A stretch of DNA of 25,010 nt from the IMG/VR virus record IMGVR_UViG_3300046733_000123, positions 1 to 25,010 of that record, one strand, 5' to 3'. The notes under the pieces are model-generated. The model made no database searches and was not told where the DNA came from. It saw only the letters and a program-made list of their open reading frames with translations. Position 1 is the stretch's first letter; each line of letters opens with the position of its first letter. Shown here one piece after another: positions 3,915-24,962 of the stretch. This stretch comes from a virus. Both the position numbers and the translations under genes were made by a program.

Positions 3915-4910
3915 CTATAACGCGATTGCCATTGCAACGGCAAAACCCGCTGAAGCTCCCGCTGATCCACTTGATGCTGCAGTAACTCTACCTTTTGCAT
4001 CTACTGTAATTGATGAATTTGTATAGCTAGCTGCTGATACTCCAGAGTTAGCTAGTGTTAATGCTCCGCCAGATGCGATTGTTGCATCACCTGACATTGC
4101 AGATTCTTGATAACTTGTACCATCTCCTATAAGTATTTTACCTGATGTTACATCAGGCATTATTAATTGAGACCCTACTGTTAAATTTCCATTTACATAA
4201 TTAGATATAGTATTTGCAAAGTTACCCATTAATGAGTGACTTGAACATTGGTAATATAAAACATTTGGTGTGTTCACATCAACTGCTATTTGTGTATACG
4301 CACCAGATGATCCTGGTGTACCATTAGTAGTTACTCCTGTTGTGTAAGCCGTAGATTTATCTGCTTCTAAATAAAATAGTAAAGGGTGACCACTGTTTGT
4401 AGAATCTGATTGATCAAATCTATAGTAATACTTGTATGATGAATCCGCACCTGAAAATGTAATCGCAGGTGATTCTAATCCATCAAAGAAATATGCACTT
4501 GAAGATCCTTGACCTGAATATGGATGTGCTGTTGTTTTAGTACCAACTTTAACTGTAATTATTTTTGGCGCTGATGAAGAACCATACTCTTCTGGTTTAG
4601 GTAAACTAATCTTTGCACCAGGCACTGTACAAAATACTTCTGTTGCACCTGCAAAGTTTACAAGAGCATCACTATTAGAACTGGAGATAACATTAGTTCT
4701 AGCAAGTGTACTTGCTCCGCCATTTAAAGTTCCAAAACCAACTTCAAAGTTATTTGTTCCTGTTTCAAAGATACAGTAATAAGTGGTATTGCCTCCACCG
4801 ATACCAGAAGAAAAAGATTCAAAACCTGAAACTGCTCCACCTAGTGTAAACGTTCCTGTTCCAGTTGTTGCACTGGATTCTTTTACCCTATCGTTTAGTT
4901 TAAACGCCAT
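3915..4910 (-). CDS. Tail fibre / tail protein with repeated fibre module (331 aa)
   Basis: The N-terminal ~110 residues begin MAFKLNDRVKESSATTGTGT and contain GFESFSSGIGGGNTTYYCIF and FGTLNGGASTLARTNVISSS. This is a domain I recognise from the N-termini of many phage tail proteins. The C-terminal part carries the fibre-type stretch GDATIASGGALTLANSGVSA and SITVDAKGRVTAASSG, ending in a small-residue hydrophobic tail (GFAVAMAIAL). The protein is rich in Gly, Ser and Thr. It is likely a tail-attached fibre or appendage protein. An AGGA site lies before the ATG. Confidence 0.7.
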   Translation of the reverse strand: MAFKLNDRVKESSATTGTGTFTLGGAVSGFESFSSGIGGGNTTYYCIFETGTNNFEVGFGTLNGGASTLARTNVISSSNSDALVNFAGATEVFCTVPGAKISLPKPEEYGSSSAPKIITVKVGTKTTAHPYSGQGSSSAYFFDGLESPAITFSGADSSYKYYYRFDQSDSTNSGHPLLFYLEADKSTAYTTGVTTNGTPGSSGAYTQIAVDVNTPNVLYYQCSSHSLMGNFANTISNYVNGNLTVGSQLIMPDVTSGKILIGDGTSYQESAMSGDATIASGGALTLANSGVSAASYTNSSITVDAKGRVTAASSGSAGASAGFAVAMAIAL

Positions 4911-5362: not shown

Positions 5363-6052
5363 TTACGGTGATGGCGATTTTATTTGTGAACGAATAGCGC
5401 CATCTTGCCATTCATCTCTACGTCTTCTACCTTCTTGTTCAATAGAATAAGATTTTGCAGCCTTTTGATATGACTGTTCGTAGTATTGTAACATATCTAC
5501 GGGTCCTTTCAAGTACCCATATGCTTCTACCAAACATGCATACAAAAGTAAATCCTGATATTTGTTGGATACATAAGTACCATTTGTAGCCGCTGGAGCT
5601 GCAGATGGATTCGTTGTATCAGTAATACTAATTGGTTGTTTTGTATAAGCTAGTGTAATTTCAAACGTAGCATTTGGTGTAGGTGCTACCACCCAAAAGT
5701 TAGCATCCCAGTTACCGTAATATTTTGGAAGTCCTGAAGAAGTTCCAGGAGTATTATAGTACTCAGCCATAAAACTTGTGTCTCTTTTATCTAAAAATAC
5801 CTGGTCTCCAGAGCTGTCTTTCAATTGAACATACCTAATAAATCTTAAATCAGAGGGAATAGTTACATATCTATTTCCTGAAACTAAGTTAGATGTAGCG
5901 TAGAATCTATTATCGTCTGTATCTACTTCTCTATAAATTCTGTTTTCAGCATTTTTAATTATTGTGTTTAAAACTCCTGTAGATAAAACTCCGTCGTCTA
6001 CCTCAGTATAATTTCTAATATCATCTTGTAAGTTTGCTAATGTGTATGCCAT
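5363..6052 (-). CDS. Head-tail adaptor protein 2, SU10/P22 gp4-like (229 aa)
   Basis: The N-terminal ~45 residues (LANLQDDIRNYTEVDDGVLS, then an alpha-helical IIKNAENRIYREVDTDDNRF) are followed by a beta domain with YVTIPSDLRFIRYVQL, GLPKYYGNWDANFWVVAPTP and a C-terminal helical pair (YQDLLLYACLVEAYGYLKGP) that is highly charged near its end. This order (helical start, 'IP.D' beta strand, 'G.P.YY...P.P', C-terminal helices) is that of phage adaptor proteins that join the portal to the tail. The start overlaps the previous stop (TAATG) with no clear ribosome site, so it depends on coupling. It shares this layout with the 241-aa protein two genes upstream. Confidence 0.75.
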   Translation of the reverse strand: MAYTLANLQDDIRNYTEVDDGVLSTGVLNTIIKNAENRIYREVDTDDNRFYATSNLVSGNRYVTIPSDLRFIRYVQLKDSSGDQVFLDKRDTSFMAEYYNTPGTSSGLPKYYGNWDANFWVVAPTPNATFEITLAYTKQPISITDTTNPSAAPAATNGTYVSNKYQDLLLYACLVEAYGYLKGPVDMLQYYEQSYQKAAKSYSIEQEGRRRRDEWQDGAIRSQIKSPSP

Positions 6053-6546
6053 TATGGTGATAGTGTAACCGGACCAGCCGATATACTTCCTCCTCCTATT
6101 TTTGCAGTTGCAGTTGCTGTACCTGAAGCTGTAAATGTATAGTTATTAGCATTTGTAACTGTAATTGTAAATCCCGAAGCGTTATTAATATCTGCAGAAG
6201 TTATACCTGCACCAGGTTCAGCATCTCTAAACCTAACAGTATCACCTGTAGTTCTTCCGTGATTATCTTCAAATACAGATATAGTCTGAGACCCATTTGT
6301 AGCGGATAATGGATTTAAAGTTAATACTCTTGCAACAGCAGGCTCAACTCTTGCAGGTCTCGCATTTAATAAACCTTGTGGATCTGCACTATGTGGTTTT
6401 GGTTCTAGTTGAGGATGCTTAGGCTCAAACTCCGATATGTGAACTCTTGCACCATTCCATTCTATTACCATTTCAGAATATGGAAACGCTAATCCTGATC
6501 TATCAGAAATAAACTGTGCGTATTTACCTGAAGAAAGATTAGACAT
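6052..6546 (-). CDS. Conserved protein between the adaptors, with tail-type C-terminal domain (164 aa)
   Basis: The N-terminal half has a distinctive conserved look: SGKYAQFISDRSGLAFPYSE, MVIEWNGARVHISEFEPKHP and QLEPKPHSADPQG. The second half is a small beta module (FEDNHGRTTGDTVRFRDAEP, then YTFTASGTATATAKIGGG) similar to modules repeated in phage adhesins and tail proteins. The gene is coupled on both sides (TAATG overlaps). I know the N-terminal pattern from marine phages but not a function. Its position between two adaptors suggests a part of the neck or tail hub (inference). Confidence 0.65.
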   Translation of the reverse strand: MSNLSSGKYAQFISDRSGLAFPYSEMVIEWNGARVHISEFEPKHPQLEPKPHSADPQGLLNARPARVEPAVARVLTLNPLSATNGSQTISVFEDNHGRTTGDTVRFRDAEPGAGITSADINNASGFTITVTNANNYTFTASGTATATAKIGGGSISAGPVTLSP

Positions 6547-23171: not shown

Positions 23172-24176
23172 TTAATTTAGGTTATCCACATTTTTTTGTT
23201 GTTGTTGCATATATGCAACTCTTTCTGCTATCTTCTGCTCTCTAGTTTTTTCAGTATTTTTCATACCTTTTATTCTTTCAGCTAGATTTTTTGGATTATA
23301 AATAACTAGCCCTGTACTATTAGTTCTAACTATTTCTGCGTCAGTAATATCTAGACCAAGTTCAGTTGCTAACTCAATCGCTTCATCAAGCCATTTATAA
23401 CCTTTTAATCCTAGCTTGATCTCTTTCATTTGTTTCAAGATACTTTCAATCCATTTAGTATGAGCCATAACGAAAGCTGATTTTTGTTGTTTCCAAGAAA
23501 TTAAAAAGTCAAACTCCTCTTTCTCACACGCAATAGAACGATCTCTACAATAATCACGACCAATTAAATCTAATTGGTATTTGTCGTTCCACTCTTTACC
23601 ATATTTGGTTTCGTTGTTTCTTCCACCAGATAAACCCAAATATTTTTCGTTGTTCTCAACAAACTTTCTTTTGTGTGGGTTGTCGTCTTTGTCGGCTTGT
23701 TCAATTAAGATGTCTGCGTTGCAATCATCTTGAGCATTGATCTCATCTCTAAACAAAGCAAAACCATAACTTTGATCTCTATTAGATGAATAATTATTTG
23801 TTTCATCAATATCGCCATTTAAACGAAAATCAAAATGTTTTTCTATTGGTACATTTTCTTCAATAGTAGTGTTTCCATTGTAGTCAGTTTTTTCTTTATT
23901 ACCCATGTAATGAAAATGAAAACAACTATCTTTTGCAATCGTTGAAACATTTTCAAACTTATTTTGTAAGTAATAAGCTTTCTCAACATCATCTTCGGTA
24001 TAATGTCGTCTTACTATTTTTTCTGCAACACTCCAAGCTTGATCGTTAATATCAATTTGATCTGCTTTTAAAGTATCATACTTTCTTTTTTCTTGAGTGT
24101 CCTCTTGTTGCAAGTGTACTTTAATACGATTTGCAATCTTGTTTCGGTATTCTTGGTTTAGTCTTATTCTAGCCAT
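23172..24176 (-). CDS. Conserved marine-phage protein of unknown function (334 aa)
   Basis: The N-terminus, MARIRLNQEYRNKIANRIKV, is basic and helical. A middle region contains CFHFHYMGNKEKTDYNGN, KHFDFRLNGDIDETNNYSSN and SYGFALFRDEINAQDDCNAD. The C-terminal third holds SAFVMAHTKWIESILKQMKE, LGLKGYKWLDEAIELATELG and TNSTGLVIYNPKNLAERIKG. I recall this overall pattern from marine phages without a proven role; the N-terminus resembles that of nucleotide-modification-associated (Nmad5) proteins, but I hold that loosely. AGAGGAC precedes the start. It is the first gene of the leftward operon, directly at the divergent control region. A perfect DnaA box lies in its last codons. Confidence 0.6.
   Translation of the reverse strand: MARIRLNQEYRNKIANRIKVHLQQEDTQEKRKYDTLKADQIDINDQAWSVAEKIVRRHYTEDDVEKAYYLQNKFENVSTIAKDSCFHFHYMGNKEKTDYNGNTTIEENVPIEKHFDFRLNGDIDETNNYSSNRDQSYGFALFRDEINAQDDCNADILIEQADKDDNPHKRKFVENNEKYLGLSGGRNNETKYGKEWNDKYQLDLIGRDYCRDRSIACEKEEFDFLISWKQQKSAFVMAHTKWIESILKQMKEIKLGLKGYKWLDEAIELATELGLDITDAEIVRTNSTGLVIYNPKNLAERIKGMKNTEKTREQKIAERVAYMQQQQKNVDNLN
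23182..23190 (+). other. Perfect DnaA-box sequence inside the 334-aa gene
   Basis: TTATCCACA, the consensus DnaA box, overlaps the last codons (Val-Asp-Asn) of the 334-aa gene. Since it is coding it may be coincidental. Confidence 0.3.
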
Positions 24177-24223: not shown

Positions 24224-24253
24224 TTGACTTCTAAAGTCAAGGGATTATATAAG
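24224..24253 (+). promoter_or_regulatory. Promoter with overlapping palindromic operator, divergent control region
   Basis: TTGACT (24224-24229) and TATAAG (24248-24253) are 18 bases apart (or ATATAA at 17), a good sigma70 promoter toward the plus-strand gene. The -35 is one half of the palindrome TTGACTT-CTA-AAGTCAA (24224-24240), so a bound repressor would block it. The same palindrome also offers a TTGACT on the minus strand, toward the leftward operon, but with no clear -10. Confidence 0.6.
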
Positions 24254-24295: not shown

Positions 24296-24333
24296 TACTT
24301 GCAGTTGGCAGTATAAAAACGCAACTGCAAGTA
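24296..24333 (+). promoter_or_regulatory. 12-bp inverted repeat in the leader of the plus-strand gene
   Basis: TACTTGCAGTTG (24296-24307) and CAACTGCAAGTA (24322-24333) are perfectly complementary with a 14-base loop. It ends 21 bases above the start codon, right before AGAAAGGACAG. It could be a leader hairpin controlling translation or a second operator. Confidence 0.55.
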
Positions 24334-24354: not shown

Positions 24355-24732
24355 ATGACATTACAATATTGTCAATCTCATAAGTGCCATACTTATGACA
24401 CAAAGGACAGAAAACGAGGTTCCAAAGGAAATAAGACAAATCAAACTAGAAGAAGATCATCATTTTATTATGGGGGTGGAAATTTTTGCTCATTAAATTG
24501 CTATGATGATTGGGCAAGGGATTTTATGGAAAGAGCCATTGATCAAGTATCTGGTAGGATTAACGAGCCATATATCTTAACAGAAGAAAATGCGTGGACA
24601 AAAACAAGAAGATATAATTGGGGTGGTGGTACAGGCTACGATATGACTTACTTTTGGAAAAACATGGTTTCCAATAGAGAGATTGAAATTACTGAAGAAG
24701 AATTTAATAATCAATCTCAACCTAATTTATAG
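24355..24732 (+). CDS. Small Cys-rich, putative zinc-binding protein (125 aa), the only plus-strand gene
   Basis: The protein starts MTLQYCQSHKCHTYDTKDRK, with Cys6 and Cys11, and has a second pair in NFCSLNCYDDWARDF, Cys45 and Cys49, similar to the 'FCS..C...W' half of FCS/MYM-type zinc fingers. Between them is a very basic stretch (RKRGSKGNKTNQTRRRSSFY). The C-terminal half is acidic and aromatic (RRYNWGGGTGYDMTYFWKNM). AAAGGA lies before the ATG. A small nucleic-acid-binding regulator is a reasonable guess. It is transcribed away from the late genes and has an unusual structured 3' region directly after it. Confidence 0.65.
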   Translation: MTLQYCQSHKCHTYDTKDRKRGSKGNKTNQTRRRSSFYYGGGNFCSLNCYDDWARDFMERAIDQVSGRINEPYILTEENAWTKTRRYNWGGGTGYDMTYFWKNMVSNREIEITEEEFNNQSQPNL

Positions 24733-24752
24733 TTTCATCTGTCCTTGATGAA

Positions 24753-24892
24753 TAGTTAGGGTTGCAAAGTGGGGGAATATAAACCCCTAAATTAAGGGAT
24801 CTATGCGCTTGGATATCCAATATAGGTAATTAGCAGTGCTTACCTATCCCTCAACACTTGCAACTCTAACTAGAATTTTTTGTTTTTTTTTT
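24753..24892 (+). ncRNA. Candidate structured noncoding RNA with terminator
   Basis: An 18-bp outer stem joins 24753-24771 with 24855-24872 (7 bp, one G-U, 7 bp, bulged A24768, 3 bp). Inside are a GGGG/CCCC hairpin (24772-24775 with 24784-24787), a 6-bp helix (24795-24800 with 24846-24851), and within it two hairpins: TTGG/CCAA (24809-24820) and AGGTAA/TTACCT (24824-24829 with 24840-24845). GCGC at 24805-24808 could pair with loop bases 24836-24839 as a pseudoknot. A run of 16 T with one interruption follows (24876-24892). The G-U pair would be C-A on the other strand, favouring plus-strand RNA. No tRNA features are seen. It may be cut from the end of the 125-aa gene's mRNA. Confidence 0.6.
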
Positions 24893-24927
24893 GGGTGGGC
24901 CCGCCCATAGTTCACAAGCTTCAAGCA
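24893..24927 (+). repeat. GC-rich repeat copy 1
   Basis: GGGTGGGCCCGCCCATA is followed by a segment with two CAAGC motifs (24915-24919 and 24922-24926). The core is almost self-complementary around GGGCCC. It is identical in its 17-base core to copy 2. Confidence 0.75.
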
Positions 24928-24962
24928 GGGTGGGCCCGCCCATAATCTACAAGCCCGCAAGC
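24928..24962 (+). repeat. GC-rich repeat copy 2
   Basis: The same 17-base core as copy 1, directly adjacent and in the same direction, followed by CAAGC at 24950-24954 and 24958-24962. The near-tandem layout is iteron-like. Confidence 0.75.

Follow-up and report, generated by a model that had tools for sequence, protein, structure and literature searches.

A phage terminator stem with a modular, probably self-associating RNA domain

Introduction

Why should a small phage gene be followed by a large, branched RNA? The question is raised by a viral DNA of 25,010 nucleotides (nt), positions 1 to 25,010 of IMG/VR record IMGVR_UViG_3300046733_000123, hereafter the window. Positions 24753-24892, just after a gene encoding a protein of 125 amino acids (aa), fold into a long closed stem with inner branches, followed by a run of Ts. 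The original prediction, made from the sequence alone, was that of a candidate phage RNA of a new kind, structured and ending in its own terminator, which could be a small regulatory or decoy RNA or a stable 3' end. Compensatory changes among relatives, described below, support the view of a structured RNA with a terminator. The comparison goes beyond it in two respects: close relatives hold a plain terminator at this place, and the domain on top of the stem, here called the head, is by its sequence one module of an extensive RNA family whose parts are shuffled. The reading that we favour, and hold to be probable, is that of an intrinsic terminator carrying a modular, presumably self-associating RNA domain.

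A terminator stem behind the 125-aa gene

The outer helix (P1) is exactly what had been predicted. Positions 24753-24771 pair with 24855-24872 in 18 base pairs, with one G-U pair and one bulged A, and the T tract follows (24876-24892). As stated at the outset, the segment lies outside any gene. The minimum free energy of 24740-24900 is -47.2 kcal/mol, as compared to -37.2 +/- 3.8 for shuffled sequences (z -2.64, with 3 of 200 shuffles as good), a clear but not extreme excess.

A protein search found homologues of the 125-aa protein at 20 loci. Nine of these, L002-L010, where the sequence after the stop codon is kept, and also L148, have a plain hairpin and a T tract at exactly the same site; the stems of these ten relatives vary in sequence while keeping complementarity. 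Because plain terminator hairpins occupy this very place, the outer helix can be identified by comparison as the terminator stem of the 125-aa gene. Among the loci compared, only the window and its identical contig (L001/L024) carry a large head there. The window meets the usual description of an intrinsic terminator, a stable stem and a T tract 3' of a gene, and its likeness to that class lies in the stem, in the long T tract and in the position where relatives hold the plain form. The difference is in the loop, which is usually of 3-10 nt and here spans about 80 nt with a conserved fold. A simple terminator scanner run on the window did not report 24753-24892, because it limits loops to 8 nt.

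The head belongs to a modular RNA family

Where might such a head come from? It is no random insert. A search with an 18-mer of the head matched contig L022, where 59 nt (24794-24852) are found 100% identical; conserved genes of the window and of L022 share 66-77% of their DNA sequence. A second match of the 18-mer, in L023, falls within unrelated sequence and was discarded as chance. In L022 the copy lies inside a noncoding region of about 550 nt, divergent from the same 334-aa neighbour gene as in the window, and is followed by a terminator-like hairpin. The core flanking it is also present at the same locus in the isolate Pelagibacter phage HTVC027P. The closest TerL relatives of the window are those of 023Pt_psg01 (65.9%) and HTVC027P (63.4%), and the window phage is therefore pelagiphage-like, of the HTVC023P type.

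At least 120 viral contig stretches contain the core motif GTAGCATAGTGACTGATC, as does one single-cell genome scaffold labelled Flavobacterium. Wherever a locus holds the 334-aa gene (105 of 105), the RNA is divergent from it, at a distance of 202-1045 nt. The layout is that of a chain: a stem A with its head, the core with a head B, often a stem C with its head, and often the Flavobacterium-1 RNA of Rfam (RF02976). The latter is a separate module; of 20 loci checked, 12 have it on the downstream side of the family core, HTVC027P among them. The core itself corresponds to no Rfam family, Flavobacterium-1 being the only Rfam match of the relatives. In the window, Rfam gave no match at gathering or relaxed thresholds, in line with the earlier remark that no known class could be recognized, and a search for transfer and transfer-messenger RNAs found none. 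No close DNA match to the stretch was found among sequenced phages, where matches were at chance level. By its sequence, then, this is a previously unlisted RNA family, widespread among marine phages.

The Flavobacterium-1 RNA appears as a module of the phage RNA locus in L145:1-1300 (KB911123.1), L025:3190-3310, L030, L034, L036, L041, L060, L075 and others. Its name may be explained by a phage region on the single-cell scaffold labelled Flavobacterium.

Two covariance models, R1 and R2, define the family; R2 was built without the window and without L022. With filters off, it aligns end to end to 24754-24872 on the + strand, with 21.7 bits and an E-value of 1.7e-5 in 811 bases, or about 5e-4 when scaled to the whole window. 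It also finds copies in L003, L004 and L148 (E 0.003-0.024), where the RNA forms the 3' untranslated region (UTR) of the following gene, and R1 finds another in L005. These four copies follow a 131-aa gene and differ in their heads; a search for further copies of the L005 type returned the same contig only. The window displays every feature of the family: the closing helix P1, the hairpin P1a with an A-rich loop, P2, a pseudoknot abutting P3, and a palindrome in between (Table 1). We conclude from these alignments that the window RNA is a member of the modular pelagiphage family. There is no 131-aa gene in the window, and its downstream flank is, by eye, close to the flank 3' of that gene's RNA in L006, so that the window RNA may be the positional counterpart of the 3' UTR copies behind the 131-aa gene.

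Just 3' of the 131-aa gene, L002 and L006 (in the latter at about 5940-6110) carry another multibranched 3' UTR RNA, mounted on a terminator stem AATTTGGGC/GCCCAAATT; its two-armed head could be placed in no head class.

Compensatory changes and the strand

The fold is supported by variation among relatives. In class a (n=19), 99.4% of cells are paired and two-sided changes occur at 12 pairs; in class b (n=19), 99.8% are paired, with two-sided changes at 13 pairs. Shuffles reached such values in 0 of 500 cases for either class, a control that takes no account of the shared ancestry of related phages, which slid controls do in part. Covariation supports P2, P3 and the pseudoknot (for example ACGCC/GGCGT, TCGCC/GGCGA and GCGTC/GACGC), so that the pseudoknot, first proposed as a possibility, is now backed by compensatory changes. 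P1 is invariant in classes a and b, an exact 18-mer having been the criterion for choosing these sequences. In L013, in L005 and in the 3' UTR copies it is changed yet complementary, being replaced in part in L013 and wholesale in L005 (CTTGGGCG/CGCCCAAG). P1a reads GGGG/CCCC in the window, GAGG/CCTC in L003, GTGG/CCAC in L004 and L005, and GCGG/CCGC in L013: four Watson-Crick pair types among five sequences. The test set beforehand, namely whether homologues would show compensatory changes or would keep a reading frame instead, thus came out for the RNA: P1 was swapped for another complementary sequence, and stops interrupt all three sense frames in 102 of 121 family cores. Together with the compensatory variation, these stops lead us to reject a hidden gene.

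The strand was at first deduced from the agreement between the G-U pair and the T tract. The T tract stands, together with the G-U pairs of the family: in the class b pseudoknot one position is G-U in all 19 sequences and could not pair if the opposite strand were read, which places the family RNA, and with it the window RNA, on the + strand. Folding energy is neutral here (-44.6 against -44.5 for the opposite strand).

Palindromic loops and exchangeable heads

Three hairpins had been proposed within P1. The inner branches hold; the middle hairpin (GGATATCC) gives way to a better description, a 12-nt palindrome, TTGGATATCCAA, at 24809-24820. Class b heads carry such a palindrome between the pseudoknot strand and P3, with changing sequence: GGGATCCC, GGGTACCC, GGAGCTCC, GAGATCTC, GGATATCC and others. 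All four of its pairs are formed in 19 of 19 sequences, and its central adjacent columns are A-U in 12, U-A in 4 and G-C in 3. Likewise, a single head family found in stems A and C has GCTCGAGC, GTCCGGAC, ACCGCGGT, GCCTAGGC and GCCCGGGC, with one exception. Across heads, this stretch varies in sequence but is nearly always a palindrome. Immediate neighbours on the same strand cannot pair together; their covariation therefore points to pairing of the head palindromes between two RNA molecules. The same argument, from covarying adjacent bases to intermolecular pairing, was made for GOLLD and OLE (PMC12286853). RNAcofold gives -101.1 for the homodimer of the window RNA against 2 x -44.6 for the monomers, a preference which, taken alone, is weak evidence.

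The heads also travel. Pairs of loci with the same head B have a different head A in 68 of 89 cases, and those with the same head C a different head A in 55 of 75. Stems A and C draw on the same head families, the base of the stem being altered to fit, with identity of up to 0.90. Shared heads stop at the stems, not at the palindrome. These patterns establish, at the level of sequence, an exchange of heads among phages and among stems, which the window extends to a terminator stem.

Two observations may be added about heads. L075 contains tandem RNA cores (4044-4159 and 4251-4367, - strand) with heads of different classes. The AGGGTTGCAAA of P1 (24753-24771) reappears in some heads of another class (AGGGTTGCAAACTG; L144, L043), by homology or by chance.

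What the RNA might do

In the explanation that we favour, 24753-24892 would be an intrinsic terminator in which a pseudoknotted RNA domain of about 80 nt has taken the place of the loop. The 125-aa message would be transcribed as far as the T tract, giving an mRNA with its 3' end closed by the 18-bp stem and capped with the domain (P1a, P2, pseudoknot, palindrome and P3), one member of the modular pelagiphage family. In most members the unit is one link of a modular chain that lies at the same locus and appears to be a noncoding RNA; among close relatives of the window, some carry it as a 3' UTR. Recombination at or near the stems would exchange heads between phages. Each head would most likely adhere to itself via its palindrome (TTGGATATCCAA in the window), so that transcripts of one phage pair together, and such dimers may protect or gather phage transcripts.

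Several points weigh against this explanation. Default filters drop the R2 match in the window, which requires a search of a short stretch with filters off, and R1 gives no match in the window. The 47-sequence set was picked by an exact 18-mer, and P1 cannot vary in it. Inside P1, the conserved fold (-37.9, with the pseudoknot and the dimer left out) is not the one of lowest computed energy (-44.6), and the ensemble probability of P1a is 0.24. When variable palindromes were sought automatically across mixed clusters of heads, the outcome was negative or weak, because head classes share no single centre in the alignment. Finally, the palindromes could act in DNA.

The strongest rival, which we consider rather unlikely, is an ordinary terminator with a passenger loop: a spare RNA module would have recombined in, and only the stem and the T tract would matter. 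A stem and a T tract do suffice for intrinsic termination, and close relatives manage with a plain hairpin; yet similar modules with other heads stand as 3' UTRs after another gene in L003, L004, L005 and L148, and the window head retains every conserved feature, pseudoknot and palindrome included. Somewhat less likely again is a decoy or regulatory RNA that binds a protein or RNA of the host or of a rival phage, head diversity reflecting an arms race and the palindromes belonging to a protein-bound structure. The heads are indeed very diverse and shuffled, and two genes of HTVC027P that adjoin the RNA, just downstream of it, gp33 and gp34, are strongly expressed at 6-9 h (PMC12753301). Against this, covarying central adjacent bases in the palindromes are unexpected for a protein-bound monomer.

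We think it improbable that the palindromes work at the DNA level, where they would be bound or serve as exchange sites for cassette swapping, with RNA folding secondary. A palindrome has two-fold symmetry as DNA as well, and the heads are indeed mobile between stems and phages; but P2, P3, P1a and the pseudoknot covary, the G-U pair of 19/19 class b sequences would be mismatched on the other strand, and shared heads end at stems rather than at the palindrome. Last, a packaging RNA like that of phi29, which also multimerizes through loop contacts, is hardly credible here in spite of terminase genes within a few kilobases: R1 and R2 find no match in the stretches searched of HTVC023P and 023Pt_psg01, and several close relatives have plain terminators only after the 125-aa gene, when a packaging part should be constant.

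A broader reading is more tentative than the self-associating terminator which we prefer. The family might be an RNA cassette system in which standard stem joints receive interchangeable heads with variable self-complementary tags, so that the RNA made by each phage recognizes further copies of itself but not a competitor's. If this were true, the tag on the 3' end of the window mRNA would let the message join that assembly.

Comparison with known RNAs

The nearest kind is that of the ornate phage RNAs GOLLD and ROOL. These too are phage-encoded structured noncoding RNAs without known purpose, and their covarying palindromic loops were interpreted as intermolecular contacts (PMC12286853). By sequence the window RNA is outside them: their Rfam covariance models match neither the window nor its relatives. 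The pelagiphage unit is of about 120 nt, as against 600-800 nt, its heads swap between stems, and it can be mounted on a 3' UTR terminator. Flavobacterium-1 (RF02976), a neighbouring module at family loci, has another sequence and structure, and the window is without match to it at gathering score. A non-homologous parallel is the dimerization initiation site of HIV-1, where a self-complementary loop differs among lineages while remaining palindromic; for the window RNA, we infer dimerization from its sequence relatives.

Openly accessible papers yielded no account of exchangeable heads mounted on standard stems, and no literature on noncoding RNA in pelagiphages. A noncoding RNA goes unmentioned in the main text of the HTVC027P transcription paper (PMC12753301) and of the HTVC023P-type genome paper. 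The family adds an unlisted, widespread RNA to the phages of SAR11, the most common bacteria in the ocean, including cultured HTVC027P (host HTCC1062), and since that phage is in culture the family is directly testable. Its modules are exchanged among stems and phages in a way comparable to protein domains. The variable palindromes would be a rare case in which natural sequence variation predicts RNA-RNA self-recognition, adding to recent evidence of phage RNAs assembling into multimers.

Neighbouring elements

Table 1. Positions of the RNA, of its parts and of nearby elements in the window
Feature	Position	Strand	Remark
334-aa gene	23172-24176	-	Divergent from the RNA (+); the 125-aa gene sits between them in the window
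Promoter-like element TTGAC-N-GTCAA-GGGATTATATA	24224-24251	+	Between the divergent 334-aa and 125-aa genes
12-bp perfect inverted repeat in the 5' leader (TACTTGCAGTTG / CAACTGCAAGTA)	24296-24333	+	Repeat search
125-aa gene	24355-24732	+	Message predicted to be ended by the RNA; Pfam search without match
P1 5' arm of the 18-bp terminator stem	24753-24771	+	Bulged A is 24768
P1a hairpin GGGG-AATATAAA-CCCC	24772-24787	+	Homologous hairpins have A-rich loops
Joining strand TAAATTA	24788-24794	+	Family counterparts TATAACA, TATATCA, TATAGTA
59-nt head module	24794-24852	+	100% identical to L022:525-583(-)
P2 5' arm AGGGAT	24795-24800	+	Pairs with 24846-24851; P2 covaries in the family
Pseudoknot 5' strand GCGC	24805-24808	+	Pairs with GTGC 24836-24839; homologous pseudoknot has compensatory changes
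Self-complementary palindrome TTGGATATCCAA	24809-24820	+	Proposed intermolecular contact; palindromic in relatives despite changed sequence
P3 5' arm AGGTAA	24824-24829	+	Family structure, window fold
Pseudoknot 3' strand GTGC	24836-24839	+	Abuts the P3 3' arm, as in the family
P3 3' arm TTACCT	24840-24845	+	Window fold
P2 3' arm ATCCCT	24846-24851	+	Window fold
P1 3' arm of the terminator stem	24855-24872	+	Pairs with 24753-24771
T tract TTTTTTGTTTTTTTTTT of the putative intrinsic terminator	24876-24892	+	T tracts also 3' of the stem in L002-L010

The promoter-like motif of Table 1, upstream of the 125-aa gene, recurs elsewhere: 39 of 107 family loci have it 130-484 nt 5' of the RNA, and L004, L008 and L148 have it 5' of the 125-aa gene. 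A strict sigma-70 scan did not report the element at 24224-24251, and its role as a promoter is for this reason counted as putative. Common to RNA loci and to the 125-aa gene, TTGAC-N-GTCAA-GGATTATATA comprises an inverted repeat overlapping the -35 box, as an operator might. The leader repeat looks, by eye only, like the hairpin that comes first in the chain RNAs (GACTTGC..GCAAGTAGG).

Beyond the T tract, a near-palindrome GGGTGGGCCCGCCC with a conserved tail ATAGTTCACAAGC appears at 24893-24919 and again at 24928-24954. Similar repeats are present in L001-L010, L016, L022 and L148, after terminators, often in two copies, and ahead of the next promoter. Finally, the 125-aa protein has paired cysteines, CxxxxC near the N-terminus and then FCSxxC, as does a protein of 112 aa in L022 (L022:2708-3046); this arrangement is suggestive of a small zinc-binding protein.
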